From Nitrospiraceae bacterium (GTDB lineage Bacteria; Nitrospirota; Nitrospiria; Nitrospirales; Nitrospiraceae), in the NCBI GenBank assembly GCA_009692155.1, contig SHZW01000001.1, positions 1 to 64,000 on the forward strand: a stretch of DNA of 64,000 nt. The letters are read 5' to 3'. The notes under the pieces were generated by a model. The model saw only the letters and a program-made list of their open reading frames with translations. It was not told where the DNA came from and did no database searches. Numbering within the stretch: position 1 is the first letter of the stretch; every line of letters starts with the position of its first letter. Shown piece by piece: positions 16,115 to 39,869 of the stretch. A program made the position numbers and the translations under genes.

Positions 16115-16279
16115 GTGAGAGAAAACCAGCCCGATGGATCGCAGAGAATTTCGAGCGTGTCCACTTTCTGGATTAAGGTCGTCAATTTAAAAGGCATCGG
16201 CGAAGAGCCGGACGCCTATCCGGTTCCTCCTGAAATCGTCGCTCAGTTGACGATGGTCCACTCCGGCTCTTCCAAATAA
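16115..16279 (+). CDS. small hypothetical ORF (54 aa, GTG start)
   Basis: VRENQPDGSQRISSVSTFWIKVVNLKGIGEEPDAYPVPPEIVAQLTMVHSGSSK; below the ORF-track cutoff. Confidence 0.3.
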   Translation: MRENQPDGSQRISSVSTFWIKVVNLKGIGEEPDAYPVPPEIVAQLTMVHSGSSK

Positions 16280-16306
16280 CGCCCGAAGAACCAGCCGCAC
16301 TGCGCA

Positions 16307-17161: not shown

Positions 17162-17226
17162 GCCCCACCCGTGTACCTCCTGGCTGGTTGAACCACGCCT
17201 TCATGCAACAGACAGTCATATCTGTG

Positions 17227-18415: not shown

Positions 18416-18444
18416 AGTGGCCGGTCCCGCCTGCACAATGGATG

Positions 18445-19251: not shown

Positions 19252-19260
19252 GAATGATCG

Positions 19261-21797: not shown

Positions 21798-21832
21798 GCG
21801 ACTCCTAATTTGCAGATGTTGCGAAGACCGGA

Positions 21833-21863
21833 ACTCGCTCAGCCGGGAGCCGGCTGAGCGAGT
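21833..21863. repeat. perfect 14-bp palindrome between divergent genes
   Basis: ACTCGCTCAGCCGG-gag-CCGGCTGAGCGAGT. Confidence 0.8.
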
Positions 21864-22003
21864 ACGTGTACCACGTCCGCCCTTTCATTGCAACGGGTTA
21901 CGAGGAAATTACGAGCTTGGCCAACTCCCTCCACTTGTGTTATCCCCTCACCTGCCGGCAACACACAGAGACCGGCTCAACTAGTCGGATCGGAAGCACG
22001 ATC

Positions 22004-23086
22004 ATGCTGATCTGGTGCGCGATTTCAAGCCATGGCCTGGGGCATGCCGCCCAAGTCGTACCTGTGTTAAACGAATTGGGACGGATCGTTCCCGATCTCC
22101 ATGCCGTCCTGCGCACGCAGGTGCCCGCGTGGTTCTTCGAAGACCGCCTGACGATCCGCTGGACGCGTTCACCGGAGCAACAAGACATCGGCTGCATCCA
22201 GCATGGCCCGCTCACCATCGACGTCGCAGCCACCTGGGGCGCGCATGCCCGGTTTCACGCAGGGTGGGAGCAGAAAGTTCATGACGAAACCCTTGCCATG
22301 CGGGCCGCCCTGCCGGCGCTTGTCTTTTCCGACATTTCCTATCTCGCCATCGAAGCCGGCGCCACAGCCGGCATTCCGACGGTAGGGCTCTGCAACCTGT
22401 CGTGGGATCGGATTCTCGAGCCATTAGCCGAACCGGGCCGGACCGATCAGCGGGAAGCCATACAGCATATCCAACGCGCCTATGCCCATGCCGGGCTGAT
22501 GCTTAGGCCGGCGCCAGGCGTACCGTTGACCGCGTTCCCCAAAGTTTCCGATATCGGTCCGATTGCCGAGCCAGCATCCAACGCCGCATCAGAACTTCGA
22601 CGAGCCCTGGCGGCCGCACCGGGCGAACGCATCGTCCTCATCGGATTTGGCGGGATCGCGCTCGACACTCTTCCCTTCGAATGTCTGGAACAGATGGGGC
22701 CTTATCGCTTCATCGTCAGTGGGCCGGTGCCGGACCGGTACACACGAATCCACGCAGCCTCGGCTCTCCCCTTCTCGTTTAGAACCCTCCTGGCCTCGGC
22801 CGATCTCATCGTTACCAAGCCCGGCTACAGCACGGTTGTCGAAGCCGTCGCGCTGGGGAAACCGGTCGTCTATGTCAGACGATATAACTTTGCCGACGAA
22901 CAGGCGTTGGTGGACTATCTCCATCGCCACGGCCGCGCCGTGGAATTGTCGGAGCAGGACTTCACCGTCGGCCGCTGGCAGACAGCGCTCCAGGCCGCCG
23001 CATCGGCGCCGCTCCCTTGTGAAACATCCCCCGCGCTGACCGGCGCCGCTGATGCAGCTCAGGCGCTCTCTCAGTACCTAAAATAA
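22004..23086 (+). CDS. MurG-like predicted glycosyltransferase
   Basis: CAISSHGLGHAAQVVPVLNEL N-terminus; SADLIVTKPGYSTVVEAVALGKPVVYVRR donor-binding region. Confidence 0.8.
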   Translation: MLIWCAISSHGLGHAAQVVPVLNELGRIVPDLHAVLRTQVPAWFFEDRLTIRWTRSPEQQDIGCIQHGPLTIDVAATWGAHARFHAGWEQKVHDETLAMRAALPALVFSDISYLAIEAGATAGIPTVGLCNLSWDRILEPLAEPGRTDQREAIQHIQRAYAHAGLMLRPAPGVPLTAFPKVSDIGPIAEPASNAASELRRALAAAPGERIVLIGFGGIALDTLPFECLEQMGPYRFIVSGPVPDRYTRIHAASALPFSFRTLLASADLIVTKPGYSTVVEAVALGKPVVYVRRYNFADEQALVDYLHRHGRAVELSEQDFTVGRWQTALQAAASAPLPCETSPALTGAADAAQALSQYLK

Positions 23087-23127
23087 ACAACACTCATGAC
23101 ACCTCCCTTGACCATTATCGACCTCGT

Positions 23128-24099
23128 ATGGCTAGGATACCCCCGATCATGAGCGCGATTGGCTGGTTCATACGGATGCTTGCCAGAGGCTTGAGTCTTC
23201 TCGGCCTGACATTTACCGGACAGAGGCGTGGGCCATTCATCAGCGCGGGGCTGCTACTCCTCTGGCTCCTGGCGTGCCCTCTCTCCGGCTACGCGCTTGA
23301 AAAATACGGCCGCCCGATGCCGGCCATGGGCGAGACGTCAAAAGAAAAAAAAGAACCTCACGAGCAGAAAGAGCGGCATTGGCTCAAGGGCTATCTCCTG
23401 ACCAGCGCCTTCGTCGATAATCCGACCTTCGCTGCACGACCCGACAACACGGGGCTCGTCGGCCTCCGGCACATGATTCATCTCGAGACCGACCTCTATA
23501 AGGAATATCTCCAGTTTTATACCGATCAGAACTTTTTTTCGGATCGTAAAAACGGCTGGATCGAACTGTCCGAGTGGGACACCACTTTTGCCTTTACCGG
23601 ATCGCTGAATCAATGGGGCTGGCGGTTGCAATACGAACGGGATGCGCCGCTCGACAAAACCGGCATAAAGCAAATTTATGCCGATACTCTGATTAACTAT
23701 AACTTCGCACAAGCCAATCAGTACGCATGGTGGCAGGACCGCTTCCCCAACCAGAATCTGACCTTCTATATGGGCGGCGGGTGGCTCTTTCACAACGAAA
23801 GCTACTTCGCCCGCCCCGACAACACCGGTCGCGCGCTACTCCGTTACGTCGCCCATGCCGATCTTGATCTCTATAAGAATCGCGTCGTGTTATTCGCAGA
23901 CACCAATTGGTTCTCCGACCGGCTAAAAAGCGACAAGGTCACACCGACCGAGCTGGACTGGATCGTCGGCCTGGCCCTGCGATGGAAGGATTACGAGCTG
24001 GCCGTGCTCCACGAGCGGGACATGCCGCTGGACCGCGGGGGATTGATCCAACGCTACACAGCCATCCAGCTTCGCTACGAATTCGAGTGGCAGAAGTAG
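23128..24099 (+). CDS. hypothetical exported protein with two internal repeats (beta-barrel-like)
   Basis: Signal-like N-terminus; repeated FxARPDNTG...DLYK...FxxDxNxFSDR...ERDxPLDxxG blocks. Confidence 0.65.
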   Translation: MARIPPIMSAIGWFIRMLARGLSLLGLTFTGQRRGPFISAGLLLLWLLACPLSGYALEKYGRPMPAMGETSKEKKEPHEQKERHWLKGYLLTSAFVDNPTFAARPDNTGLVGLRHMIHLETDLYKEYLQFYTDQNFFSDRKNGWIELSEWDTTFAFTGSLNQWGWRLQYERDAPLDKTGIKQIYADTLINYNFAQANQYAWWQDRFPNQNLTFYMGGGWLFHNESYFARPDNTGRALLRYVAHADLDLYKNRVVLFADTNWFSDRLKSDKVTPTELDWIVGLALRWKDYELAVLHERDMPLDRGGLIQRYTAIQLRYEFEWQK

Positions 24100-24112
24100 C
24101 ACTCCTACGCTA

Positions 24113-24188
24113 TAGTGACGAGTGCTCAGTAACGAGTAATGAGTGAAAAATCTGAACTCATTACCCCTCACGCATAACTCATGACGTT
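24113..24188. repeat. heptad-unit inverted repeat element A
   Basis: Left GTGACGA GTGCTCA GTAACGA GTAATGA GT; right arm revcomp GTCATGA GTTATGC GTGAGGG GTAATGA GT. Confidence 0.8.
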
Positions 24189-24197
24189 AGGACGACC

Positions 24198-24701
24198 ATG
24201 AGTCTCGCGACCGACAAAGACAGAGAGTACATGCGGCTGGCGCTGGAGCAGGCCCGGACGGCATCTGTGCAGGGGGAAGTTCCCATCGGGGCCGTGCTCG
24301 TGCGGGATGGGCGGGTTCTGGCGCAGGCGCATAACTTCCGGGAGATCTGGCAGGACCCTACTGCGCATGCGGAAATAGTCGCTATCCGGGAAGCGGCGAC
24401 GCAGTCCGGCTCCTGGCGCCTGACCGACACGACACTCTATGTGACGCTCGAGCCCTGTGCGATGTGCATCGGCGCCATCATTCTGGCAAGAATTCCCCGG
24501 CTGGTGTTTGGAGCAATGGACCCCAAGGCCGGTGCCTGTGGATCTATCTTCGATCTGCCAGCGGAACGGAAACTGAATCATCGTGTCGAAGTGATCGGCA
24601 GGGTCCTTGAACAGGAAAGCCAGGCACTGTTACAGACGTTCTTCCGTAACTTGCGCAACGACGTGACCGAGCAGGCAGGAAGATTTGGAAGTGAAAAGTG
24701 A
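24198..24701 (+). CDS. tadA: tRNA adenosine(34) deaminase
   Basis: HAEIVAIREAA and PCAMCIGAI zinc/catalytic motifs, GACGS. Confidence 0.96.
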   Translation: MSLATDKDREYMRLALEQARTASVQGEVPIGAVLVRDGRVLAQAHNFREIWQDPTAHAEIVAIREAATQSGSWRLTDTTLYVTLEPCAMCIGAIILARIPRLVFGAMDPKAGACGSIFDLPAERKLNHRVEVIGRVLEQESQALLQTFFRNLRNDVTEQAGRFGSEK

Positions 24702-24783
24702 AAGGTAAAAGGTGAAAAGGGAGAGCGCGTTCGGACCGTCTTCCTGCTTCTCAACCTTTCACTTTTAACTTTTTACTTTTCAC
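24691..24783. repeat. heptad-unit inverted repeat element B
   Basis: Left GTGAAAA GTGAAAG GTAAAAG GTGAAAA; right arm revcomp GTGAAAA GTAAAAA GTTAAAA GTGAAAG. Confidence 0.85.
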
Positions 24784-24793
24784 ACACTTGAGC

Positions 24794-24883
24794 GGAGAGG
24801 TGACTGAGTGGCCTAAAGTGCCGGTCTCGAAAACCGGTGTCGGGGTAACTCGACCGTGGGTTCGACTCCCACCCTCTCCGCCA
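24794..24883 (+). tRNA. tRNA-Ser (anticodon CGA), CCA encoded
   Basis: GGAGAGGTGACTGAGTGG...GGTCTCGAAAACC...GGTTCGACTCCCACCCTCTCCGCCA. Confidence 0.96.
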
Positions 24884-24892
24884 GTAACAAGC

Positions 24893-24972
24893 CGGTAGCG
24901 AACAGCAAACAGCGAGCAGCAAGATTTTCTGGCTCGTCGCTACTAGCTATTAGCTATGCGCTATTCGCTCCT
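24893..24972. repeat. heptad-unit inverted repeat element C
   Basis: Left GCGAACA GCAAACA GCGAGCA GCAAGAT; right arm revcomp GCGAATA GCGCATA GCTAATA GCTAGTA GCGACGA. Confidence 0.85.
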
Positions 24973-24976
24973 GCCT

Positions 24977-24993
24977 GAGGGTGGGAGTCGAAC
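24977..24993 (-). repeat. inverted copy of tRNA-Ser(CGA) T-arm/acceptor strand
   Basis: GAGGGTGGGAGTCGAAC is the exact reverse complement of tRNA 24860-24876. Confidence 0.85.
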
Positions 24994-25077
24994 GAGGGGG
25001 ATCTAAGGTTTACCCTTGTTGAGGCCGACGGATACGTACCGCAAGAGTTTTCAGGACTTTTAAAGATCAGTCCTTGA

Positions 25078-25827
25078 ATGGAGAATATGCATCGGATCCC
25101 ACCCCACCCACCATTACGTGAGTATTACGAATCGAGTGCGCTTCGGCAACGCTTTCTCAATGGACTGTTCAACCAGACTGCTGCTCATTACAAGACGGTC
25201 AATCACGCTGTGAGCTTCGGATCTGGGATGTGGCATCGCAGGAAAGCGCTCCGTGAAGCCGGTCTCTCAGAAGGAATGCGGGTCCTGGATGTCGCCTGTG
25301 GCCCGGGCCTTGTGACACAGTGTGCCGCTGAGATAGTGGGGCCTTCCGGCTATGTGATCGGGTTGGATCCTAGCACGGGCATGCTCCGCGAAGCTCAGAA
25401 AGGTTTCTGTCCAAGTCTCGTTCAAGGTGTGGCAGAGGCCCTTCCTTTTCTAGATGCCTCATTTGACTTTATCAGCATGGGTTATGCGCTCCGCCATGTG
25501 TCCGATCTCAGCGTTACATTTCGCCAATATCTGCGCGTCCTGAGACCGGAAGGAGTAGTGTTGGTTATGGAAATCTCTCGACCTCGGTCGAAGATGCTCC
25601 GGCGTCTGTCGCGCTTTTACGTGAAATCGGTGTTGGGTTTGGCGTTAACCATAGCAACCCGCAACCCGTCCATGCATACTCTTATGAATTACTGGTGGGA
25701 TACCACCGAGCGCTGTGTGCCGCCCGAGATGATCACGAAGACGTTCAAGGATGTCGGCTTTGCCTGCACGAGTACGAAAGAAGTGTTTAGCGGGCTTCTC
25801 CGCGATTACACGGCAGTCAAAGCCTGA
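25078..25827 (+). CDS. class I SAM-dependent methyltransferase (UbiE-like)
   Basis: MRVLDVACGPGLVTQCAAE, ISMGYALRHVSDLSVTFRQYLRVLRPEGVVLVMEISRP. Confidence 0.9.
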   Translation: MENMHRIPPHPPLREYYESSALRQRFLNGLFNQTAAHYKTVNHAVSFGSGMWHRRKALREAGLSEGMRVLDVACGPGLVTQCAAEIVGPSGYVIGLDPSTGMLREAQKGFCPSLVQGVAEALPFLDASFDFISMGYALRHVSDLSVTFRQYLRVLRPEGVVLVMEISRPRSKMLRRLSRFYVKSVLGLALTIATRNPSMHTLMNYWWDTTERCVPPEMITKTFKDVGFACTSTKEVFSGLLRDYTAVKA

Positions 25828-25912
25828 TATCAGCGTCACACATTGCCATGCCTGTCTGATGATCCTTCCTTGACAGGGCACAGAAAGAATCGTAAAACTA
25901 CGCAAGGATTTC

Positions 25913-26212
25913 TTGAACGTACTGCTCGCGCTGGAGGTTACATCCGTGTCCGGCGTCTCACCACTAGAAGAGGAAGTTGCGAAACTCATCGTGCAGACGC
26001 TCAATCTGAAGATCGATCCCGTACAGATTCAGCCAGAACAGCTTCTCTTCGGCAAAGGTCTCGGCCTTGATTCGATTGACGCACTCGAACTGTCTCTCGC
26101 GATCTCCCAATCCTACGGGTATCACATACGCTCCGATGATCCGGAGATCACTGCCACCCTCGCTTCACTTCGGTCGCTGTGCACGTCAATCCAGAAAAAT
26201 CGGACGAAGTAG
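25913..26212 (+). CDS. acyl carrier protein
   Basis: GLGLDSIDALELSLAI phosphopantetheine site; GTG at 25946 is an alternative start. Confidence 0.9.
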   Translation: MNVLLALEVTSVSGVSPLEEEVAKLIVQTLNLKIDPVQIQPEQLLFGKGLGLDSIDALELSLAISQSYGYHIRSDDPEITATLASLRSLCTSIQKNRTK

Positions 26213-26226
26213 TCCAATGTGGCCTT

Positions 26227-27576
26227 ATGAATACGGCTGCTCTACTCGGCCCCTACCAGCCTGAAAGCGCCTTCGCCTGGATCGGTGGCTCCCCGATCAC
26301 GTGTCATCGTTTCCTTTCTGAGGTGGCCACCCTGGCCGATCAACTGCCGGAAAATGCCACGGTAATCAATCTGGTCGAAGATCGGTTTCGTTTTTTCGTC
26401 GGATTCGCAGCAGCGTTGGTTCGAGGGCAGACAACACTCCTGCCTCCTGGTCGCGCACCGAAAGTCTTGGCCCAGATTACCAACGATCATGCCAACAGCT
26501 ATTGCTTGATAGATGGCCAGGGAAAAGTTGAAGGATTACCTTCATTCCATATTCTTTCTACCTATAGGAACAGTAAAGAACATCAGTTCGTTGTTCCCCA
26601 GATTCCCACCAAACAAATCGCCGTGGTCGCCTTTACGTCTGGCAGCACCGGCACTCCTCGTCCAAATCCGAAAACGTGGGGCTCATTGGTGGCTGTAGCA
26701 CAACACACGGGTGCTCGACTGGGTCTCTCACCAACAGACAACGTGACAGTAGTCGCGACTGTGCCGCACCAACATATGTTCGGGTTGGAGGCTTCTCTCC
26801 TGCTGCCCACGCAATTTGGGCTTCCATTTCACACCGGGCGGCCCCTCTATCCTGAGGATATCCGATCGGCACTTGGATCAGCGCCGCCGCGCCGCATCCT
26901 GGTCACGACACCGTTACATATCAAAGCCTGCGTGACTGAAAAAACCCAATTTCCTAAAATAGACTTTATTCTGTCAGCGACCGCGCCACTGCCGATAGCG
27001 CTCGCACAGCAGGCGGAGACTCTGTTTGACACCAAAGTGTTCGAAGTCTATGGATTTGTCGAAGCAGGAAGTGTGGCGACACGCCGAACAGTCGCCGGTG
27101 ATAGCTGGCAGCTCCTGGATGGGATCAGCTTTGCGAAGCACTCGGATCACTACTCTCTTCGAGCTGACTATTTGCGAGAGCCAGTTCCGTTTCCTGACCA
27201 CATCAGTCTGCAGGGACCTCGGACATTCTTTCTTCAGAGCCGCCATGCCGACCTTGTCAACATCGCAGGACATCGCGGTTCTCTCGGCGATCTGAACCGA
27301 AAACTGAACGAGATCGAAGGAGTGCAGGATGGAGTCTTTCTTTTTCCTGGGCAAGACGAACGTTCAATCACCCGCTTGACGGCCTTTGTTGTCGCACCGG
27401 GGAAATCCGCCGACCAGATTCTGAGTGATCTTCGGACTGTGATCAATCCCGTGTTTCTCCCGAGACCTCTGTATCTTGTGCCCATCCTTCCCCGGAACGA
27501 GACTGGAAAGCTCACCAGGGAATCACTGCTCGAACTCGCGAGACAGCTTCAGTGTGAGGATCACCGTGGGCTATGA
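26227..27576 (+). CDS. AMP-dependent acyl/aryl synthetase (ligase)
   Basis: AFTSGSTGTPRPNPKTWGSL P-loop-like motif, FEVYGFVEAGSVATR, RNETGKLTRESL. Confidence 0.9.
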   Translation: MNTAALLGPYQPESAFAWIGGSPITCHRFLSEVATLADQLPENATVINLVEDRFRFFVGFAAALVRGQTTLLPPGRAPKVLAQITNDHANSYCLIDGQGKVEGLPSFHILSTYRNSKEHQFVVPQIPTKQIAVVAFTSGSTGTPRPNPKTWGSLVAVAQHTGARLGLSPTDNVTVVATVPHQHMFGLEASLLLPTQFGLPFHTGRPLYPEDIRSALGSAPPRRILVTTPLHIKACVTEKTQFPKIDFILSATAPLPIALAQQAETLFDTKVFEVYGFVEAGSVATRRTVAGDSWQLLDGISFAKHSDHYSLRADYLREPVPFPDHISLQGPRTFFLQSRHADLVNIAGHRGSLGDLNRKLNEIEGVQDGVFLFPGQDERSITRLTAFVVAPGKSADQILSDLRTVINPVFLPRPLYLVPILPRNETGKLTRESLLELARQLQCEDHRGL

Positions 27577-27892
27577 ACGGATCGCCACCATCGGCATGGA
27601 TCATCCGTCATTGGCTGGACATTTTCCTGGGCGACCTGTCGTACCTGGTGTCGTGATGCTGGGTGAAATTATGGAAGCCGTTCGCCAGAGCGTGAAGCGA
27701 AATATTGTTTTCATTGGTATGCCAACCGCCAAGTTCCTCTCGCCCTTAGCTCCGGGAGAAAGACTGGTGATCCTTCTCGAGCAGAACAATGGATACGGCA
27801 TCGATTTTATCTGCCAGGTTGGCTCACGTTTGGTCGCAACAGGATGCCTGCACTATCGCCAGATGCCTCATGGTGCGAAGGATCCTCGATGA
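27566..27892 (+). CDS. hotdog-fold 3-hydroxyacyl-ACP dehydratase-like protein
   Basis: HPSLAGHFPGRPVVPGVVMLGEIM FabZ/ApeI-like motif; GTG start at 27566. Confidence 0.85.
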   Translation: MGYERIATIGMDHPSLAGHFPGRPVVPGVVMLGEIMEAVRQSVKRNIVFIGMPTAKFLSPLAPGERLVILLEQNNGYGIDFICQVGSRLVATGCLHYRQMPHGAKDPR

Positions 27893-28782
27893 GCTTGCAA
27901 TGGCTGCGACAGCGTGAGCGCGGGAGTGTGGCAGCCCTTCACTTTATGGTCTGGGTTGCCCTGCGACTCGGCCGTCCCGCTGCTCGTGCGCTCCTGTACC
28001 CCATATGTGCCTACTACGTTGTGTTCTCTGGCCGAGCTCGACGGGCCATCCGTCAGTTTCTCTTCAGGGTCTTGGGCCGACGAATCAGTTGGCGCCATCT
28101 GTTTCATCATTACCATTGTTTTGCCTCTACAATTCTGGACCGCGTCTATTCTTTGGTTGGCCAGCATCATCGATTCCAGATCGACGTGCAGGGCGCCGAC
28201 CTGCTTACAGATTATTTGAATCGTGGCCAGGGATGCATACTGCTGGGCTCCCATTTGGGAAGCTTTGAAATCGTGCGTGCGCTCGGTATGTCTCGACGTA
28301 ACCTTGAGATCAAAGTACTGCTGCATGAAGATAATGCGCCGATGATCAGAGAAGTGGTGCGAAGTCTGAATCCTCAGATAGCCGATACCGTGATTACGGT
28401 CGGCGCGCCGGACACGATGCTGCAGGTGAAGGATTGCCTGGACCGTGGAGGGCTGGTTGGCTTTATGGGTGACCGCCTGGTGCAGCATCATCAGGCGACG
28501 CTCTGTAAATTTTTCGGCACCCTCGCACGATTTCCCACTGGGACCATGCGGCTCACGAGCGTGCTGAAGGCACCGGTAATCCTGTTCTTCGGACTCTATC
28601 GTGGAGGAAATCGCTGGGAAGTTCACTTCGAGCTGTTTGCCGAACACGTAATTCTCGACAAAGAGCATCACGATCAGCAGATCCAGCAATGGACACAACG
28701 CTATGCTGATCGACTGGAACACTACTGCCGTTTGGCGCCTGACAACTGGTTCAACTTTTATGATTTTTGGAGTGAACGCTAA
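27889..28782 (+). CDS. LpxL/HtrB-like lipid acyltransferase
   Basis: LGSHLGSFEIVRAL, VGFMGDRLVQHHQATLCKFFGTLARFPTGTMRLTSVLKAPVILFF. Confidence 0.9.
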   Translation: MSLQWLRQRERGSVAALHFMVWVALRLGRPAARALLYPICAYYVVFSGRARRAIRQFLFRVLGRRISWRHLFHHYHCFASTILDRVYSLVGQHHRFQIDVQGADLLTDYLNRGQGCILLGSHLGSFEIVRALGMSRRNLEIKVLLHEDNAPMIREVVRSLNPQIADTVITVGAPDTMLQVKDCLDRGGLVGFMGDRLVQHHQATLCKFFGTLARFPTGTMRLTSVLKAPVILFFGLYRGGNRWEVHFELFAEHVILDKEHHDQQIQQWTQRYADRLEHYCRLAPDNWFNFYDFWSER

Positions 28783-29410
28783 TCGTACAACGCTCCTGCT
28801 CGTCCTGTTCACCCTGACGCGGTTCATGGTTGTGCCGCTTCCCAGCCAGGTCTGGGCAGATCCAACGACTCAAGCTGAGGGGAACAGCGCGACTGGTGAG
28901 TGGAACGTTGACCAACTGATCATCCGGTTAGCCAAGCAGAGGAAAGAAACCGTGTCCTTTGAGGAGACGACCTTCTCCGCCATGCTGACTGAACCATTAA
29001 AGACACGAGGGACGCTGAAATTCACACCTCCCGCCAGACTCGAAAAACACGTGACGGACCCATACGATGAACGCTATGTCATCGATGGCGACAACGTCCT
29101 TTACGAGAAAAATAGCACGCGCGTTAGCAAAAACTTTTCGCTGGAGGACTATCCGGTTTTGCGGGTATTCGTGGAAGTCTTCCGGTCAAGTTTCGCCGGC
29201 GACCCTGTTACCTTGAAGCGTTTCTACAAGGCGACCTTGGAAGGCAAGCCTCGCCAGTGGTCCCTCATCCTTCATCCGCAGGACGTGACTATCCAATCGA
29301 TCGTACAGAGCGTTCGCTTGTCGGGTGAAGGAGGGCACATAACGAGGATCGAGACTCGATCCCCCGATGGTGATCGGTCAGTGCTCGTCATACAGGCCCC
29401 CGGTGAATAA
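28760..29410 (+). CDS. LolA-like outer-membrane lipoprotein carrier
   Basis: FEETTFSAMLTEPLKTRGTLKFTPPARLEKHV, YVIDGDNVLYEKN. Confidence 0.85.
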   Translation: MIFGVNANRTTLLLVLFTLTRFMVVPLPSQVWADPTTQAEGNSATGEWNVDQLIIRLAKQRKETVSFEETTFSAMLTEPLKTRGTLKFTPPARLEKHVTDPYDERYVIDGDNVLYEKNSTRVSKNFSLEDYPVLRVFVEVFRSSFAGDPVTLKRFYKATLEGKPRQWSLILHPQDVTIQSIVQSVRLSGEGGHITRIETRSPDGDRSVLVIQAPGE

Positions 29411-31724
29411 ACGAGCGGCGACAGTCCTTCTGGCCTGGAGTCTGCTGATGTGTCTCGGCACCTGGTTTGCAGCCGCACGCGTGCCGGTCCATACCGAGCT
29501 CTTCGACCTGTTGCCCGAGGGATCCACCACCACGCAACGTCTCCTTCTGAAACAGCTCAGGACCGGTGTCTCGGGGCGACTGATCCTGATGGGGCTCGAG
29601 GGTGCGGATGCTGATCGATTGGCAGAGAACAGCAAACGGCTGGTGGAGTGGATGCACAAGAGTGAGCTGTTTCATTATGTTGGGAATGGTATCGAAACCC
29701 TGACACAAGAGGAGCGCGATCATCTCTTCCGCTCGCGCTACTTGCTCTCTCCTGGCATACAGAAGGACACCTTTGCACCGGACCATCTCCGGGATGCGCT
29801 CGAACAGCGCCTCGATGACTTGCGGTCTCCCCTGGCTCCCATGATCAAGGAATTTGTTCCAGCCGACCCGACGACTGAATTTCTGAAGATACTCACTACC
29901 TGGACACCATGGAACACGCCTACCAAACATCGTGGCGTGTGGTTCTCGGCTGACCATCAGCGTGCCCTGCTGGTTGCGGAAACGAAGGCGGCCGGCTTTG
30001 ATGTTGACAGCCAAGCGGACGTGCAGCAGCAGATCAGAGAGGCGTTTCAGAGCATGGTCGGGTCGAACACGGGCATGCGTCTGGTCATGACCGGTCCGGG
30101 GGTGTTTGCGGTTGAGGCACAGCAGACCATTCAGAATGAAATCTGGTGGTTATCGCTGATGGCAGTCATGCTGGTATTCACGTTCTTGTACTTCAGCTAC
30201 CGATCCGTCACCCTGCTGGTTCTCAGCTTGGTTCCTCTTGCCAGCGGTATTGTGACGGGAATCCTCGCAGTGGATTTTGCATTTGGTTTCATCCATGGCA
30301 TTACTCTGGGATTCGGCGTGACGCTCCTGGGTGTCGTCGACGATTACCCCATTCATCTGTTCAGTCATCTGACGAGGGAGAGTTCGGCGGTGAACGTCAT
30401 ACAAGAGATTTGGTCCACGATGCGCCTCGGAGTCATCACCACGGCTCTTGGGTTCTCCGCGCTCTTGCTGGCTGGGTTTCCGGGCCTGTCTCAACTTGGT
30501 CTGTTCGCGATTGTAGGCTTGTTGACTGCGGCAGCGACGACTCGCTGGGTGCTTCCCTTCCTGGTTCCTGTCGGGTTCCACCCACGTCGATCCGTGATGG
30601 GCCTGGCGGGCTTGGCGGATCGATTCACGCAAGCGCGTCTGCTGGTTCCGCTCTCCGTGCTCCTTGCCAGCGCCGTGCTGATATGGTCGAATACCCCCCT
30701 GTGGGAACAGGACATTGCCAACGTGAGTCCGATCTCATCCGATAAGAAAATACTCGATCACACCTTGCGGACGGAACTCGGGGCGCCCGATGTTCGCGAT
30801 CTCATCGTAATTGAGGGCGCGACTGAGGAGGACGTCTTGCAGCGGAGTGAAGATACCATGCCTGCCCTCGATCGCCTGGTGAAGCAAGAAGTTCTCACCG
30901 GATTCGACATCGTTACGCGCTACCTGCCAAGCCGCCGCACGCAGGCCATGCGCCAAGCAGCCTTGCCGGACCAGCAGACCGTGCAACGCAATCTCAGAGT
31001 GGCCCTGAAGGGATTGCCATTTCGACCGACTGTCTTCCGGCCTTTTGTCGAGGCGATCGGGGAAGCCAAGACGCAACCATTTCTTCAAAGCCAGACGTTC
31101 CGTGCGACGACGTTGGGAATTAAGATCGACTCATTGCTCCTCGAACATAGCGGACGGTGGATCGCCGTGGTACCGTTACGAGGCATCACGGCTCGAGAGC
31201 GATTATACGAAATCGTGCTGTCATGGGAGAAGCCGTCGATTTCCTATCTTGATCTCAAAGGGGAATCCAATCGCTTGATCATGGCCTACCGGAATGAAAC
31301 CCTGACCCTCGTGGGTTGGGGAACACTCGCCATCGGGTTCGTCCTATTCATGGGGTTGCGATCGCTCTCGGCTGTGTTGCGAGTCCTGATTCCGATCGGC
31401 AGTGCGATCGTGGTAGTGGGAGCGCTCCTTCACAGCCTCGGAGAACGATTGTCGCTCTTTCACGTGGCCTCCTTCCTCCTCGTAGTGGGACTTGGCTTAG
31501 ACTACGCGTTGTTCTTCAATCGAAGACATGGCACTGAGTCCGAACGAGATCGGACCGTGTATGGTCTCCTTGTGTGTAGCACCACAACCATCTTGGTCTT
31601 TGGCGTGTTAGCCTGTTCACAGCTTCCGGTACTGAAGGCCATCGGGATGACTGCCGCGTTGGGCTCGTTCACCTGTTTACTGTTCGCCGCACTGCTGGCA
31701 GACCAAGGAACCCATGAAGTGTGA
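29403..31724 (+). CDS. MMPL/RND-superfamily exporter
   Basis: About 774 aa, two TM clusters with GxxxD-like GVTLLGVVDDYPIHLF and VVGLGLDYALFFNRR. Confidence 0.92.
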   Translation: MNKRAATVLLAWSLLMCLGTWFAAARVPVHTELFDLLPEGSTTTQRLLLKQLRTGVSGRLILMGLEGADADRLAENSKRLVEWMHKSELFHYVGNGIETLTQEERDHLFRSRYLLSPGIQKDTFAPDHLRDALEQRLDDLRSPLAPMIKEFVPADPTTEFLKILTTWTPWNTPTKHRGVWFSADHQRALLVAETKAAGFDVDSQADVQQQIREAFQSMVGSNTGMRLVMTGPGVFAVEAQQTIQNEIWWLSLMAVMLVFTFLYFSYRSVTLLVLSLVPLASGIVTGILAVDFAFGFIHGITLGFGVTLLGVVDDYPIHLFSHLTRESSAVNVIQEIWSTMRLGVITTALGFSALLLAGFPGLSQLGLFAIVGLLTAAATTRWVLPFLVPVGFHPRRSVMGLAGLADRFTQARLLVPLSVLLASAVLIWSNTPLWEQDIANVSPISSDKKILDHTLRTELGAPDVRDLIVIEGATEEDVLQRSEDTMPALDRLVKQEVLTGFDIVTRYLPSRRTQAMRQAALPDQQTVQRNLRVALKGLPFRPTVFRPFVEAIGEAKTQPFLQSQTFRATTLGIKIDSLLLEHSGRWIAVVPLRGITARERLYEIVLSWEKPSISYLDLKGESNRLIMAYRNETLTLVGWGTLAIGFVLFMGLRSLSAVLRVLIPIGSAIVVVGALLHSLGERLSLFHVASFLLVVGLGLDYALFFNRRHGTESERDRTVYGLLVCSTTTILVFGVLACSQLPVLKAIGMTAALGSFTCLLFAALLADQGTHEV

Positions 31725-31734
31725 GAAGTCAGTC

Positions 31735-32946
31735 ATGGCGCCGCTGGTACTGAGCGCGTATACACTCGTGAGTGCGCTCGGAAAAGGACTCGAACCGACC
31801 TACAGGGCCTTGCGCGATCGGCGTTCTGGTTTACGGCCTTGCGACTTCGAGGATGTGGGAATAAAAACCTATATTGGCCGGGTCGATGGTTTGGAAGACT
31901 CATCGGCCGGCTGCGGCTCAACTGCACAAGAGTTGGAACAGTTTGACTGCCGGAATAATCGGTTAGCGCTTCTCGGGCTGCAACAAGATAGGTTCATGCA
32001 AGCCGCCAGTGAGGCGCGGGATCGCTACGGCGCACACCGCGTGGCGGTCATCCTGGGTACCAGCACCTCCGGCATTCTCGAAACGGAGCATGCCTATCAC
32101 GAACGTGATCCCCAGACCGGTGTCTTGCCGGCATCGTTCACCTCTCGGTACCGATACACCCATAACATGTTCTCCCTTGCCCATTTTGTCCGGACTTGCC
32201 TCAATCTCCGAGGGCCGGCCATGGTCATTTCAACTGCATGCTCATCCAGCGCCAAGGCGTTTGCCACCGCCTCACGATTCATCGAAACAGGATTCTGCGA
32301 TGCCGCCATCGTGGGCGGAGTCGATAGCCTGTGCCTCACGACTCTGTATGGATTCTCTTCGTTGGAACTGATGTCGAGCGATCCCTGCCGTCCCTGCGAT
32401 GAGGATCGCGACGGGCTAACATTAGGCGAGGCAGCCGGATTTGCGTTGCTGGAAAAAGCCGATCGTGCGGAGCACTCCGGGGCGGTGGCGTTACTGGGCT
32501 ACGGGGAGAGTTGCGACGGATATCATATGTCGCATCCCCATCCGGAAGGAGCGGGGGCGATCAGAGCGATGCACGACGCGTTGCGACGGAGCGGGCTCAC
32601 ACCCGGGGACATTGACTACATCAATCTGCACGGGACGGCGACGAGGGCGAACGACAGCATTGAAGATAAAGCGGTCAGCTCAGTGTTTGATCTCTCGACC
32701 CCTTGTAGCTCGACCAAAGGATGGACGGGGCACACCCTAGGGGCGGCGGGAATCACGGAAGCGGTCATTGCCGCGATGTGTCTCACTCACAGTTTTGTGC
32801 CGGGAACGCTGAATACGACTCGAGTCGATCCCAACTTAAGAAGCTACGTGCTACTGGAGAACCGGGAGCAGCCGGTGCGGCGGGTGTTGAGCAATATCTT
32901 TGGGTTTGGCGGCAATAATTGCAGCATGATTCTAGGGACTCTCTGA
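31735..32946 (+). CDS. beta-ketoacyl-ACP synthase (KS)
   Basis: Active-site Cys STACSSSAKAF, NLHGTATRANDSIE, KGWTGHTLGAAG, NIFGFGGNNCSMIL. Confidence 0.95.
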   Translation: MAPLVLSAYTLVSALGKGLEPTYRALRDRRSGLRPCDFEDVGIKTYIGRVDGLEDSSAGCGSTAQELEQFDCRNNRLALLGLQQDRFMQAASEARDRYGAHRVAVILGTSTSGILETEHAYHERDPQTGVLPASFTSRYRYTHNMFSLAHFVRTCLNLRGPAMVISTACSSSAKAFATASRFIETGFCDAAIVGGVDSLCLTTLYGFSSLELMSSDPCRPCDEDRDGLTLGEAAGFALLEKADRAEHSGAVALLGYGESCDGYHMSHPHPEGAGAIRAMHDALRRSGLTPGDIDYINLHGTATRANDSIEDKAVSSVFDLSTPCSSTKGWTGHTLGAAGITEAVIAAMCLTHSFVPGTLNTTRVDPNLRSYVLLENREQPVRRVLSNIFGFGGNNCSMILGTL

Positions 32947-33749
32947 TGCGACTGTATGTGAACGGTATCGGAATGATCGGGCCGGGTCTCGTTGGATGGA
33001 GGGACCATCAAGCCGTCTTGACCGGTACCTCTCCGTACCGAGAAACAATGCGACCGGAACCTGTGGCGAGCATCCTTCCCCCGAACGAGCGCAGGCGAAG
33101 CAGCGACATTGTGCGCTGGGCAGTACATGTTGCGCAGGAAGCCATCGAACAGGCTCAGGTGAACCCTCGTGAAGTGGCGACGGTTTTTGCCTCTTCCTGT
33201 GGAGAAACCGATGTCCTAAATCGACTCTGTACGGCCCTTGCAACACCGCAACGGGTGATTTCACCTACACTGTTCCACCATTCCGTCCATAATGCCGCTG
33301 CCGGTTACTGGGGCATCGCTACGGGCTCGCAGCAATCGTCCACAGCGCTGTCTTGTTATGATTCTTCTTTGTGTGCTGCCTTATTAGACGCGGCCGCCTA
33401 TGTCCACATCGAAGGGGGGCTTGTGCTTCTCGTGGCCTATGATCTTCCCCCTCCCCTTCCTCTCTATGCCACGAGACCCCTCCGCGAAGGGTTCGCGGCC
33501 GCGTTCGTCTTGGCAGAAACTCCTGGACAACACAGCCTAGTCCAGCTTGATCTGAGTCTTTCTGATGATCTCTCGTTGAACGTCACGAGCATGGAAGAAG
33601 CGGGACTGGAAACGCTTCGGAGTACAAATCCGGCTGCACGGTCCTTGCCGCTACTGGCCGCCATTGCGGGACACCGAGCCACGCCCGTGTGCCTCGAATA
33701 TTTAGAATATCAGCGACTTTCAATCCGAGTCACACCATGCCGGTCATGA
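32946..33749 (+). CDS. KS-like chain-length-factor protein
   Basis: FHHSVHNAAAGYWGIATGSQQSSTAL; no TACSS active-site motif. Confidence 0.88.
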   Translation: MRLYVNGIGMIGPGLVGWRDHQAVLTGTSPYRETMRPEPVASILPPNERRRSSDIVRWAVHVAQEAIEQAQVNPREVATVFASSCGETDVLNRLCTALATPQRVISPTLFHHSVHNAAAGYWGIATGSQQSSTALSCYDSSLCAALLDAAAYVHIEGGLVLLVAYDLPPPLPLYATRPLREGFAAAFVLAETPGQHSLVQLDLSLSDDLSLNVTSMEEAGLETLRSTNPAARSLPLLAAIAGHRATPVCLEYLEYQRLSIRVTPCRS

Positions 33750-34186
33750 GCAAAGCCGACCTCTGTCGATTGATTCCGCATGAAGGAGCTATGTGTCTCT
33801 TGGATGCCGTGGAGCAATGGGACGAGACTCGCATTACCTGCCGTGCAGAATCACATCGTCACACCGGCAACCCTCTTCGGCGCGGGAATCGGTTGGAGGC
33901 CATCTGTGGATTGGAATATGCCGCGCAAGCCATGGCGGTTCATGTCGGCATTCTGAATAAGAAGACTGCGAATCAAACGGTCGTGGGATATTTGGGGGCG
34001 GTGCGAGAGCTGTCGCTACACGTGAGTTTCCTCGATGATGTAAAGACCGATTTGATCATTGACGCCGCACGTCTGATCGGAGATGCGGCCACCTTTGTCT
34101 ACACCTTTCGCGTGTCGGCTAAGAGCCGAGAATTGCTGAGCGGGCGCGCGTCCATCTTTTTGAAATATCCCGATCAACGCATATGA
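33737..34186 (+). CDS. second hotdog dehydratase-like protein
   Basis: IPHEGAMCLLDAVEQWDETRITCRAESH...CGLEYAAQAMAVH. Confidence 0.88.
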   Translation: MPVMSKADLCRLIPHEGAMCLLDAVEQWDETRITCRAESHRHTGNPLRRGNRLEAICGLEYAAQAMAVHVGILNKKTANQTVVGYLGAVRELSLHVSFLDDVKTDLIIDAARLIGDAATFVYTFRVSAKSRELLSGRASIFLKYPDQRI

Positions 34187-34902
34187 AGCGAGCCTTGGTC
34201 ACAGGTGGGAGCGGATCGATCGGCTCGGCGATCTGCCGTGAGTTGGCTAAACAGGGGCTGCACGTAATCGTCCATACCCACCGTCACCGCGCCACGGCAG
34301 AAGCGCTGACCGGAGAGATCAAGCAGGCGGGAGGCTCGGCGAACATCGTGAGTTTTGACGTGACCGATGGTGAGGCGGCACAGCGCGCGCTCGCTGAAAC
34401 ATTGGAAGCGGGACCAATCCAAGTGCTGGTGAACAATGCTGGCATCCATGATGATGCTCCGATGGCCGGAATGAAGGCGGAGCAGTGGACCCATGTTCTG
34501 GCTGTATCACTTCACGGGTTTTTCAATGTGACTCAGCCGCTGCTGCTGCCTATGATGGGTACACGGTGGGGACGGATTATCACCATCTCCTCAATCTCCG
34601 CAATACTTGGCAATCGCGGCCAGACGAATTATGCGGCGGCCAAGGCGGGGATTCACGGCGCCTCCAAGTCGCTTGCGCTGGAGGTGGCCTCCCGCGGAGT
34701 CACCGTCAATGTGGTTGCGCCGGGCATTATCGAATCGCGCATGGTCGAACAGATTTTTAAACCAGAGATGATTGAGACTCTCGTGCCGATGAAACGGGCT
34801 GGCACGCCTGAAGAAGTCGCACATCTGGTTGGATTCCTGGCTTCTGAGAAAGCGGGGTACATTTCCGGTCAGGTGATCGGTGTCAGCGGGGGTCTGGCAT
34901 GA
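34183..34902 (+). CDS. 3-oxoacyl-ACP reductase (FabG-like SDR)
   Basis: GGSGSIGSAICREL, NNAGIHDD, YAAAKAGIHGASKSLALE. Confidence 0.95.
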   Translation: MKRALVTGGSGSIGSAICRELAKQGLHVIVHTHRHRATAEALTGEIKQAGGSANIVSFDVTDGEAAQRALAETLEAGPIQVLVNNAGIHDDAPMAGMKAEQWTHVLAVSLHGFFNVTQPLLLPMMGTRWGRIITISSISAILGNRGQTNYAAAKAGIHGASKSLALEVASRGVTVNVVAPGIIESRMVEQIFKPEMIETLVPMKRAGTPEEVAHLVGFLASEKAGYISGQVIGVSGGLA

Positions 34903-35729
34903 ACGCTGAGCGAAATTCAGTGACCAACTCCCCGTCTGGATACTGGGTTGTCATCCCGGCCTATAACGAAGCCGCGACAATCAGAGATGTGGCCTCCGGA
35001 GCGCTTCGACAGATGTCGAATGTGATCGTGGTCAATGATGGGTCAACTGATGGCACGGAACAAGCCCTGGCTGGGTTAGCTGTCATTGTGCTCAAGAATC
35101 CTACGAACGGCGGAAAGGCCGCCAGCCTGTGGCTCGGGTTTCAATATGGACTTGAGCGTGGTGCGATGGGAGTGATCACATTAGATGGCGATGGACAACA
35201 TGCGCCGGAAGATATCTCCAAACTGGTGGCCGAAGCGAGACGGTTCCCCGACCATCTGATCATCGGTGCCCGCCGACGTGACCAGCGCCGCGCGGCTTTT
35301 TGGCGCTATGGAGCCAATTGCATCGCAGATTTCTGGATTTCCTGGGCAGCCGGCGCTCCATTTGAAGACAGCCAGTCAGGCTTTCGGGTCTATCCCGAGT
35401 CGCTCTTGCGACGAGTAAAGAGCCAGCATGGAAAAGCAAGGAGCTTTGTCTTCGAAAGCGAAGTCCTGATCGAGGCCACGCACTTAGGCTATCGGAGCAC
35501 AGCAATCTCTATTGATGCATGGCATCGTCCCGGAGCGCGCCCGAGCTATTTTCGGCCAACACTCGATATCGTACGCATCACGCTGATGATAGCCTGGAAA
35601 CTGCTTTCTCGAGGCATGCACCCGGCGGGTCTTTACAGGACACTCACTGATCGAAGCCCGCGTTTGGACATGAGGAATGAATGTGAGCAGTCGCCTTCCA
35701 GAGTCCGGTTAAAACCGCCCCTACTCTGA
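34899..35729 (+). CDS. family 2 glycosyltransferase
   Basis: VVIPAYNEAATIRDVA, VVNDGSTDGTEQA, ITLDGDGQHAPEDI. Confidence 0.95.
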   Translation: MNAERNSVTNSPSGYWVVIPAYNEAATIRDVASGALRQMSNVIVVNDGSTDGTEQALAGLAVIVLKNPTNGGKAASLWLGFQYGLERGAMGVITLDGDGQHAPEDISKLVAEARRFPDHLIIGARRRDQRRAAFWRYGANCIADFWISWAAGAPFEDSQSGFRVYPESLLRRVKSQHGKARSFVFESEVLIEATHLGYRSTAISIDAWHRPGARPSYFRPTLDIVRITLMIAWKLLSRGMHPAGLYRTLTDRSPRLDMRNECEQSPSRVRLKPPLL

Positions 35730-36289: not shown

Positions 36290-36712
36290 TTATCCTCCAA
36301 CCTCTTCATGAACTAGCCGTAGATAGCCACGCCTGATCGCGGCATCAAGGTTCTTGATCCAACTAAGATAGTTGCTATGAATAGTCTTTGCCTCCGCATC
36401 ATAGTTCAGATTCATGCTGCTTTTATAGGTGATGCTGTACTTTTTTGTGTTGTATTTGATATCCACAACCGCCTGGTGACTGCGGAGATTGAGAGTTCCG
36501 ACAAGATGTCCCGGCTGAACGTCAGTCATGTCCCACTTAAGGGATCCGCCAGCCTCGACAATCGCCTTCCTCACTTGCTCCAGTGAAGGCTCCTTGCCGG
36601 ATACGGTCGTAACCGAGCTGTCGACCAGGTCATAAATGCTGTCTGTTCTGCAACCCGTAAAAACTGCCAATGCTATGCAGGCGTAAATAAAGCTCATCAA
36701 TATTCGATTCAT
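36290..36712 (-). CDS. small putative lipoprotein
   Basis: MNRILMSFIYACIALAVFTGC lipobox. Confidence 0.75.
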   Translation of the reverse strand: MNRILMSFIYACIALAVFTGCRTDSIYDLVDSSVTTVSGKEPSLEQVRKAIVEAGGSLKWDMTDVQPGHLVGTLNLRSHQAVVDIKYNTKKYSITYKSSMNLNYDAEAKTIHSNYLSWIKNLDAAIRRGYLRLVHEEVGG

Positions 36713-36869: not shown

Positions 36870-37955
36870 TTATTGTACTTGATACTGGAGGATGCCTTCA
36901 ATCTCCAGGAGCAACTCACTTCGGCAGATCTCTCCCTCCAGATACACAATCTGCGTCTGAGATGGCAGGTGCTGCTTCAGGATGGAGCGAACCGTCGAAA
37001 CGGCATCTGGATGCCGAAGATACACCTTGAAAAGACCCTGCCAATCACCCCGTCCGTTGTCGGCTGCGTGCAACTGATGAGCGTGATCGATGAGCGCCTG
37101 CAGATTGTGGATGGTCTCCACGGTCTGCTTCTCCAGGTCTCCGACATGCCGACTCATATGCCCCTCGATGCTCGCAGTACCCGCGATGAAGAGATGCTCG
37201 CGATACTCCGATTGCCTGAGCGTCGCACGCGCGAACGAAGGGCTTCGAGGTCCATAGATACTCGGATAGTCATAGGCATTGACTTGCCGAGGGTTCTCAA
37301 TATGCGTCACTGGTGTCGTACCTGCCAAGAAGTAAATCTGAAGCGGTCCTGATCTTGTACCGACCGCGGTCCCCGCTGGCAGAAGTTTTTTAAAATCCGG
37401 TTGACCGTCGGCAAACGCCTCATGCCGGCCGATACAGAATTGCTGGTACCGCGAAAGACCGGCAGGACAAGCGTTAATGTCCGGAAAGTAGTTCCAGATA
37501 CGCAGTAAGTGAGAGTAGCCCATAGTCCGCGTGAGAGCGAGCAACCGGCGATAGGCACTAAAGGCCAGAGTCTCAAGAGATAACTCATGAGACTCGCCTA
37601 TTTCTAATAAACCGAAAAGAATCTGTTCAGTCATGGCGAAAGAAATGCCGTCAATATTGCGATAGGTGCTAGGCGGTGCGCATGTCCAGACTTCGGCTAC
37701 GGGGGGACCGCCCAATTGCGGTAGATTGAGTGACACGACAGGACAGGGAGATTCTTGAGCTAGAAACGACGTGTCCTGGTCAAAACAGATAATCGCGAAA
37801 GGATGACATCGGGATGCTTCAAAAAATGACACCACATCCGATGCCGGCACATAATGAACTTGAATGTGCGGAGGGATGACCGCGCGAACGGGTTCAAGAG
37901 AGGCGGGGTTTTCTGATGAAGGCTTGGGCCGCATGATGACCAACTTTGGTTTCAC
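36870..37955 (-). CDS. chorismatase (FkbO/Hyg5/XanB2-like, hydroxybenzoate-forming)
   Basis: LLRIWNYFPDIN, RYQQFCIGRHEAF, GTRSGPLQIYFLAGTTPVTHIENPRQVNAYDYP..YGPRSPSFARATL, LFIAGTASIEGHMSRHVGDLEKQTVETIHNL, KVYLRHPDAV, EICRSELLLEIEG. Confidence 0.9.
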   Translation of the reverse strand: MKPKLVIMRPKPSSENPASLEPVRAVIPPHIQVHYVPASDVVSFFEASRCHPFAIICFDQDTSFLAQESPCPVVSLNLPQLGGPPVAEVWTCAPPSTYRNIDGISFAMTEQILFGLLEIGESHELSLETLAFSAYRRLLALTRTMGYSHLLRIWNYFPDINACPAGLSRYQQFCIGRHEAFADGQPDFKKLLPAGTAVGTRSGPLQIYFLAGTTPVTHIENPRQVNAYDYPSIYGPRSPSFARATLRQSEYREHLFIAGTASIEGHMSRHVGDLEKQTVETIHNLQALIDHAHQLHAADNGRGDWQGLFKVYLRHPDAVSTVRSILKQHLPSQTQIVYLEGEICRSELLLEIEGILQYQVQ

Positions 37956-37960: not shown

Positions 37961-39292
37961 TTACACTATTGCATTGCTGGTATCGCCAAGCGTCGAAGGA
38001 ATTCCCTGAGTTCTTCTCCGATGAGCCAACCAGTTTTCCTTCAGATTGAAGAGGTAGACGAGGTAGTACGCGATTTTGAAAAGAAAGATCGGGATCTGTA
38101 TCGGAGACTTGCCGAACGCATCGCCGGCCAATACGGAAAGCACGGCTTCCTCTATCTTAAACTTGCTGCGTCTTGACATAAAGAGGGCCCGAAAGGCCGG
38201 TTGCGTGAAGTGATAAATGAACCAGGAATAGGTGTTGATCCCTCTTCGCACTGTGCGCTGAAACTGCCGAAGGAGCTGAGCATATTCAGGCGCGCATCGC
38301 AAGTGGGCGTCCACAACCTCCGCACCCAGCATTGCGCTGTTCAACGCCAAATGCACCCCGCTGGAGAAGACAGGATCGATAAAGGCAAACGCATCGCCGA
38401 TCATGATGTAGCCGTCGCCTGACATCGTCCTTCGACGATACGAGTAGTTAGCAGCGGCATAGGCCTGTGAGATCAGCTTCGCGTTCTTCATGCGCTCGGC
38501 GACCGGGGGGCACAGCGCAATCGTTTCCCACAAAAACTGGTCAAGTGGAACCTTCCTCGAGCTGATGTAGTAGGGCCAGCAGACGGCTCCCACGCTGGTG
38601 GTCCCGTCCTTGAAGGGGATAATCCACCACCAGCCGTGATCGAACCAGACGATACTGATATTGCCCTCGTCCATGCCGGCCAAGCGCTTCACGCCCTCGA
38701 AATGACCGAAGATGGCGGCGCTGCTATGGTGAGGATTGCGGTGTTTGCCCCCCACCTGTCCGGAAAGAAACGTGTCACGGCCACTGGCGTCTACGACGAA
38801 GCGGGCCTCCCATGTTAGTATTTGCCCTTGCGAATCCTCTGCATGCACCAGGGTGGATTGCCCTGGACGAAGCTTGACCTGCTTGGCCCTAACTCCTTCT
38901 CGCACATGAGCGCCCTTGGCAATGCAGTTACGGAGCAGAATCTCATCAAACTCGGCTCTCTTGACTTCAAAGGCAAACGGTTGCGAACCATCGAGTGCAC
39001 GAGAAAAGTACAGCATGCGCGACCTCCCGTGATAATGGGAGACCACCTCCGCGCCATACTTCGTAATGCCGATCTTTTCGACCTCGGACAGAACGCCCAG
39101 CCGTTTGAGCATGGGCAAGGAATGAGGCAACAAGGACTCGCCGATGTGGAACCGTGGGTGGCGATCCTTTTCAAGCACCTCTACATGCCACCCTTGCTCA
39201 GCTAAGATCGCAGCCATTGTCGAACCGGCAGGACCACCTCCAATTACAAGCACATCGCATGAGCAGACTGACTTCTTCTCTGTTGCATCCAT
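37961..39292 (-). CDS. flavin-dependent halogenase-like / NAD(P)/FAD oxidoreductase
   Basis: DVLVIGGGPAGSTMAAILAEQGW, FHIGESLLP, GWWWIIPF (fits WxWxIP), GDAFAFIDPVFSSGVHLA. Confidence 0.88.
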   Translation of the reverse strand: MDATEKKSVCSCDVLVIGGGPAGSTMAAILAEQGWHVEVLEKDRHPRFHIGESLLPHSLPMLKRLGVLSEVEKIGITKYGAEVVSHYHGRSRMLYFSRALDGSQPFAFEVKRAEFDEILLRNCIAKGAHVREGVRAKQVKLRPGQSTLVHAEDSQGQILTWEARFVVDASGRDTFLSGQVGGKHRNPHHSSAAIFGHFEGVKRLAGMDEGNISIVWFDHGWWWIIPFKDGTTSVGAVCWPYYISSRKVPLDQFLWETIALCPPVAERMKNAKLISQAYAAANYSYRRRTMSGDGYIMIGDAFAFIDPVFSSGVHLALNSAMLGAEVVDAHLRCAPEYAQLLRQFQRTVRRGINTYSWFIYHFTQPAFRALFMSRRSKFKIEEAVLSVLAGDAFGKSPIQIPIFLFKIAYYLVYLFNLKENWLAHRRRTQGIPSTLGDTSNAIV

Positions 39293-39530
39293 TATGTGAA
39301 CCCTCATCAGCGGTCTGGCGGGGATGAGAAAGTATACCCAACATGAATGAGCATGGCTAGAGACTTCTCGCGATGCATTCTTAATCTTGCATGACCGGGT
39401 TTTAATATTCGCTCTCATGACTTGGCAATATCATCTTAGAAATAGATACTTTCCCCAAGCCACATACGGATGAGGAGATTTGGTTATGAGCCTTGGTGAA
39501 TATCAGATTGCTCTCGGAAGGAAAGAAATA

Positions 39531-39869
39531 ATGAAACATCTTAAAGTTGTGTCACTTGGCATTTTTCTTCTCCTGGCTCTGGCATGCACATCTACGCCCT
39601 TGCACCTACAGACCGCTCCGGTCGGTCCGGATGAGCAAGTGCTTGGACCCGTTGAAGGCTCCAGTACCGGAATCATGCTGTTCCAGTTTATTCCGATCAA
39701 TCAGAACGACCGTTTCGTGAGGGCGTATCAACGAGCGGTCGCGACTAGAGGGGGAACTACACGGTTGGTCGATGTGACCATGCAAGAACGGTGGTTCTGG
39801 GCATGGGTCCTAAATGGCTCTATTTTCCATGTCTCAGGGACGGCGGTTGGACCTAAACAGGAAAAGTAA
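39531..39869 (+). CDS. small putative lipoprotein
   Basis: MKHLKVVSLGIFLLLALACTS lipobox. Confidence 0.7.
   Translation: MKHLKVVSLGIFLLLALACTSTPLHLQTAPVGPDEQVLGPVEGSSTGIMLFQFIPINQNDRFVRAYQRAVATRGGTTRLVDVTMQERWFWAWVLNGSIFHVSGTAVGPKQEK

Follow-up and report, generated by a model that had tools for sequence, protein, structure and literature searches.

A chorismatase gene paired with a halogenase-like gene in an aryl-polyene cluster: a candidate source of the aryl starter in a probable Nitrospira lineage

Introduction

Aryl-polyene pigments of the xanthomonadin type protect Xanthomonas and Lysobacter from light and oxidative damage. In Azoarcus, the neighboring genes arcA and arcB, encoding a halogenase and a chorismatase, serve the formation of an aryl polyene; ArcB makes both 3- and 4-hydroxybenzoate (3-HBA and 4-HBA), of which 3-HBA is a substrate of the ligase ArcT (PMC3949708). 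Loss of the XanB2 homologue in Lysobacter lowers pigment by about 90%, and added 3-HBA restores it; the Lysobacter polyene cluster contains no halogenase (PMC3691225).

Here we describe a related locus in a 64,000-nucleotide stretch of DNA from a bacterium of the family Nitrospiraceae (the window). The original prediction took the protein encoded at 36870-37955 for a XanB2-like chorismatase dedicated to supplying an aryl starter. We compared this protein, its neighbors and its relatives in the same bacterial family with the described systems.

Gene organization of the locus

A complete aryl-polyene set is present in one locus of the window: acyl carrier protein (ACP), AMP-ligase, ketosynthase with chain-length factor, ketoreductase, dehydratases, LolA, MMPL exporter and acyltransferase. 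These genes form a plus-strand operon (25078-35729) that faces the chorismatase gene and a halogenase-like gene. The features are:

25078-25827, plus strand: UbiE-like SAM methyltransferase of the polyene operon
25913-26212, plus strand: acyl carrier protein with the phosphopantetheine motif DSI
26179-27576, plus strand: AMP-dependent ligase, predicted to attach the aryl acid to the ACP
27476-27892, plus strand: FabA/FabZ-like dehydratase
27844-28782, plus strand: LpxL-like acyltransferase
28703-29410, plus strand: LolA-like carrier protein
29367-31724, plus strand: MMPL-family exporter
31714-32946, plus strand: ketosynthase of the PRK09185/aryl-polyene type
32919-33749, plus strand: ketosynthase-like chain-length-factor protein (Ketoacyl-synt_2)
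33689-34186, plus strand: second dehydratase-like protein without a Pfam hit, alignable with the protein annotated as hydroxymyristoyl-ACP dehydratase in the Azospirillum cluster
34183-34902, plus strand: FabG-type ketoreductase, also matches flexirubin FlxB
34899-35729, plus strand: family 2 glycosyltransferase
36290-36712, minus strand: small conserved lipoprotein-like gene without Pfam match, between glycosyltransferase and chorismatase, at the same place in 23 related loci
36870-37955, minus strand: chorismatase of 361 aa, GTG start
37961-39292, minus strand: FAD-dependent halogenase-like protein; the frame opens at 39418, with the methionine at 39292 as likely start
39480-39869, plus strand: small conserved lipoprotein-like gene without Pfam match, upstream of and divergent from the halogenase-like gene, near it in several related loci

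The halogenase-like gene lies upstream of the chorismatase gene on the same strand, and its stop is located 5 nt before the chorismatase start. The original prediction had placed the chorismatase beside an AMP-ligase and an ACP. All three belong to the same cluster, but the chorismatase gene does not directly adjoin the other two: it faces their operon from the opposite side, at a distance of about 10 kb to the ligase gene. Directly next to it lies the halogenase-like gene, of which no mention had been made. With this adjacent gene, the locus resembles the xanthomonadin and arcuflavin clusters more closely.

Identity of the chorismatase

Read as its reverse complement, the stretch 36870-37955 gives one uninterrupted frame that starts with GTG, encodes 361 residues and closes with a stop codon. 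The plus strand contains many stops; the gene, for which no strand had been given, is on the minus strand. All motifs quoted in the original prediction are present in this frame. The protein matches Pfam PF21168, the FkbO/Hyg5-like N-terminal domain, above the cut-off (E 2e-35). With NCBIfam TIGR04444 it reached E 4e-68 and 230 bits, which is under the curated cut-off of 325 and places it some distance from the core of that model. The sole matches of a PDB sequence search were Hyg5 (5ag3 and 5a3k; E 1e-49) and FkbO (4bps; E 4e-43). We predicted the structure with AlphaFold2, using 24 sequences of the family (mean pLDDT 81.3, pTM 0.83), and submitted it to a Foldseek search, in which ranks 1-7 were all occupied by Hyg5 or FkbO chains (E 1e-27 to 5e-26, TM about 0.8) and RidA-type chains did not appear before E about 1e-4.

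The YjgF/RidA fold of the C-terminal half would also fit a protein of that fold which lacks chorismatase activity and came to lie in this cluster by chance. We consider this extremely improbable: in Foldseek, chorismatases are ahead by over 20 orders of magnitude in E-value, the tree described below places the protein with Hyg5 and FkbO apart from the Rid-type rows (98/94 support), and conserved synteny excludes a chance placement. Sequence, predicted fold and phylogeny all identify the protein as a chorismatase with the FkbO/Hyg5 fold, as opposed to a generic RidA-fold protein. The original assignment is thereby borne out by the PF21168 match, the PDB matches, Foldseek and the tree.

Phylogenetic position

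We constructed a tree of 49 rows, 41 of them from the same bacterial family, which includes Hyg5 and FkbO, does not contain XanB2 and ArcB, and has long outer branches according to a tool warning. The 41 chorismatases of the family form one clade (99/99). Its sister group consists of Hyg5, FkbO and one protein each from Caballeronia, Streptomyces and Pseudonocardia (95/89), and the Rid-type and Bacteroidota rows fall outside both (98/94). Grouping with unrelated RidA-fold proteins, which the original prediction had named as the contrary outcome, was checked for and did not occur. The protein is placed with the Hyg5/FkbO group; Hyg5 and FkbO themselves fall outside the family's own clade. The chorismatase of the window pairs with the protein of genome G022 (68%), which also has a halogenase neighbor. 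The other family rows split into copies without (group A) and with (group B) a halogenase neighbor. A search of plasmid records for chorismatase relatives returned only Actinomycete, Caballeronia, Bacteroidota and Rid-type proteins, and neither XanB2 nor ArcB. The term "XanB2-like" is therefore supported for the cluster logic only.

Several related genomes contain a second chorismatase (group A loci L037-L049 and L075); genes for a methyltransferase and a polysaccharide deacetylase come after it. In some of these genomes the second copy does not lie near a polyene operon, and in one case an ACP-like frame is nearby (L042). A further chorismatase-like protein, annotated as "Rid family hydrolase", is encoded on plasmid pACMV3 of Acidiphilium multivorum (L094:1018-2136) and keeps the Cys and both Glu residues. 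Its gene adjoins two genes of the U32 peptidase family, one annotated with ubiquinone biosynthesis, and pdxST; the protein might be a source of 4-HBA for ubiquinone.

Active-site residues and predicted product

We compared the active sites in an alignment numbered after Hyg5 that includes the window protein and 40 relatives from the same bacterial family (41 rows). The catalytic Glu334 of Hyg5 corresponds to E351 of the window protein and is invariant in all aligned rows. Arg328, Gly240 and Cys327 of Hyg5 are retained as R345, G259 and C344, and all four catalytic residues are present in 41/41 family rows. The position of Hyg5 Gly173, a Gly in both Hyg5 and FkbO, is taken by Ala in the window protein (A197) and in every other family member (41/41).

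The catalytic role of the Glu has been described, and Gly164/Gly231/Cys318 of Nat-Hyg5 are characteristic of the 3-HBA-forming type (PMC7170507); with a numbering offset of 9, we equated these residues with Gly173/Gly240/Cys327 of Hyg5. The window protein thus carries the second and third residue of this type II signature and Ala at position 173. FkbO, the type I enzyme, has Ala at both 240 and 327. An FkbO-type enzyme releasing trans-3,4-dihydroxycyclohexa-1,5-diene carboxylate would have fold and family in common with the window protein, but the Gly and Cys found at these positions in all 41 family proteins make the dihydrodiol product unlikely. No FK506-type modular PKS is found among the neighboring genes either, and we regard this alternative as very improbable.

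A fourth subfamily of chorismatases (type IV) forms 4-HBA. If the window protein were of this kind, the pigment would start from 4-HBA. The subfamily is recognized (PMC7170507), and the family-wide Ala, absent from Hyg5 and FkbO, suggests that the product could differ. Against this, the enzyme retains the Gly and Cys that mark the 3-HBA type, and the nearest described clusters with a chorismatase use 3-HBA, so that a 4-HBA-forming enzyme appears quite unlikely to us. The match in two of three signature positions favors a 3-HBA-related reaction, but the product of a chorismatase is not accurately predictable from an alignment (PMC3949708), and with Ala at the Gly173 position and a separate clade it may be 3-HBA, a mixture of 3- and 4-HBA, or 4-HBA. 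On balance, 3-HBA is the probable main product, which we propose with moderate confidence. The active-site comparison of types called for by the original prediction was thus informative against the FkbO type, but Ala197 breaks the full Hyg5-type signature.

Conserved synteny and co-occurrence

A halogenase gene directly adjoins the chorismatase gene in 24 related loci, and wherever the contig allows, these loci show the order glycosyltransferase, lipoprotein, chorismatase, halogenase; the lipoprotein gene is present in 23 of the 24 loci, and the last one is cut by the contig end. We then determined the distribution of the genes in 148 genomes of the same bacterial family, counting ketosynthases at an identity of at least 69%. 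Chorismatase is present in 37/148 genomes and the close polyene ketosynthase in 36/148. Both occur together in 34 genomes, one alone in five (2 and 3) and neither in 109, corresponding to p 1.4e-27 in a Fisher test, a value that overstates independence because the 148 genomes are related. All 29 genomes with the halogenase also have the chorismatase. Two other genomes assigned to the window's own genus lack chorismatase, ketosynthase and halogenase together. Synteny and co-occurrence support the chorismatase as a dedicated partner of the aryl-polyene cluster, and the link originally drawn to these genes is thereby strengthened. In five group A loci, the polyene operon and a chorismatase occur without a halogenase, and halogenation is therefore not general.

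The halogenase-like protein

The best PDB matches of the halogenase-like protein are 3e1t (CndH), the FADH2-dependent halogenase 5buk, ChlB4 and PltA (E 1e-52 to 1e-57). They have the Lys and the motifs WxWxIP and FxxPxxSxG in common with the halogenase-like protein, but are distant in sequence. The FAD motif (GGGPAGS in the halogenase-like protein of the window), the catalytic-type Lys (K120), WxWxIP and FxxPxxSxG are kept in 29/29 compared proteins, and the partner gene probably encodes a halogenase. In-frame stops are reported for some relatives, but the affected matches start upstream of the likely start codon, and these stops therefore need not be real. Within the cluster, this gene was recognized by its motifs; it is not a universal feature of such clusters, being absent in Lysobacter.

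Proposed pathway and the quinone question

By analogy with ArcB/ArcT and XanB2 (PMC3949708, PMC3691225), we propose the following pathway. The chorismatase would remove pyruvate from chorismate and aromatize the ring, yielding mainly 3-HBA, which the AMP-ligase would load on the ACP of the cluster. The type II ketosynthase/chain-length factor, the ketoreductase and the dehydratases would extend this aryl starter to an aryl polyene. The product would be methylated and exported by the LolA-like protein and the MMPL exporter, and its ring or chain would probably be halogenated by the halogenase-like enzyme, as in xanthomonadin. The route from chorismate via hydroxybenzoate to hydroxybenzoyl-ACP had already been put forward in the original prediction. 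It gains from the cluster context and from the lack of another visible source of an aryl acid, with 3-HBA as the probable hydroxybenzoate. Neither UbiC (Pfam PF04345) nor an aromatic ammonia-lyase (PAL/TAL) was detected in the genome of the window, which is 89.6% complete, so these absences are not final. We consider it likely, though far from certain, that the chorismatase provides 3-HBA as the starter unit for a polyene of the xanthomonadin type, which is probably halogenated.

A bifunctional enzyme of the XanB2 type would in addition provide 4-HBA for the quinone of the organism. XanB2 and ArcB yield both acids (PMC3949708), and methyl-plastoquinone is known from Nitrospirota (PMC12324825, PMC13386864). 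MpqE is above the cut-off (405 bits) in the genome of the window, which indicates that the organism probably makes methyl-plastoquinone, a benzoquinone, and is probably an aerobic representative of Nitrospirota. In the same genome, UbiC, the futalosine route and an Rv2949c-like chorismate lyase (PF01947) were undetected, and the sole MenD hit is a TPP enzyme resembling acetolactate synthase. But the chorismatase is missing from three quarters of the family, including the two further genomes of its genus, and a lineage-wide quinone cannot therefore depend on it. Moreover, the published methyl-plastoquinone pathway includes a homologue of UbiC, MpqC (PMC13386864), which the Pfam models may fail to recognize. 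The models for UbiC (PF04345) and the Rv2949c-like enzyme (PF01947) found no chorismate lyase in nearly all family genomes (that of the window and 147 others), and they therefore do not decide the source of 4-HBA for the quinone. A bifunctional enzyme is conceivable but on the unlikely side, and supply of 4-HBA to the quinone is possible as a side activity of an enzyme that, in our preferred reading, makes mainly 3-HBA for the pigment.

The 4-HBA step of methyl-plastoquinone formation is not visible with the PF04345 and PF01947 models, though MpqE is clear in the genome of the window. The MenD hit mentioned above was rejected as a candidate since it has full TPP-enzyme domains and is placed before an ilvC-like frame.

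Significance

The locus is probably a xanthomonadin-type cluster with its own chorismatase and a gene set conserved in the bacterial family, probably in the Nitrospira lineage; the type of system is already known, the lineage little studied. We found no description of such a cluster with a chorismatase in this lineage among the best-ranked open-licence papers. Our analysis predicts that part of the lineage makes a xanthomonadin-like, probably halogenated pigment with its own supply of starter acid. To our knowledge, members of Nitrospira are difficult to cultivate and not yet genetically tractable, which makes a gene-based pigment prediction useful. The separate chorismatase clade also offers a natural set of enzymes in which product-determining residues could be identified. 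That the family's chorismatases represent a product type of their own, marked by the Ala at the Hyg5 Gly173 position and feeding an undescribed halogenated aryl-polyene pigment in a methyl-plastoquinone-making (probably Nitrospira) lineage, is a speculative extension that we regard as doubtful.

Comparison with described systems

Hyg5, the type II chorismatase, has the fold, E334, G240, C327 and the surrounding motifs in common with the window protein, but the two are only about 30% identical, belong to separate clades and differ by the Ala in place of Gly173. FkbO, the type I enzyme, has the same fold and catalytic Glu, but Ala at both discriminating positions, where the window protein has Gly and Cys.

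A plasmid of Azospirillum ramasamyi (L084) carries a halogenase-containing aryl-polyene cluster (13977-28195). The same polyene set was detected there with the window's proteins, whereas no chorismatase was detected in that stretch. A 225-aa hypothetical protein without Pfam match is encoded between its ligase and ACP genes (27243-27920).

The xanthomonadin (xan/pig) cluster of Xanthomonas resembles the locus: it too combines a chorismatase and a halogenase with a type II set for polyene synthesis (PMC3691225). There, XanB2 provides the pigment with 3-HBA and ubiquinone with 4-HBA, whereas the organism of the window probably makes methyl-plastoquinone. The arcuflavin cluster of Azoarcus sp. 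BH72 (ArcA, ArcB, ArcT) shares with the window an AMP-ligase, ACP, ketosynthase-type protein, ketoreductase, dehydratases, LolA, exporter, acyltransferase, methyltransferase and glycosyltransferase (PMC3949708). Azoarcus adds dialkylresorcinol genes, none of which was seen among the annotated neighbors in the window, and its genes are distributed over two loci, whereas those of the window form two facing operons in one locus. In both clusters, the halogenase and chorismatase genes are adjacent.
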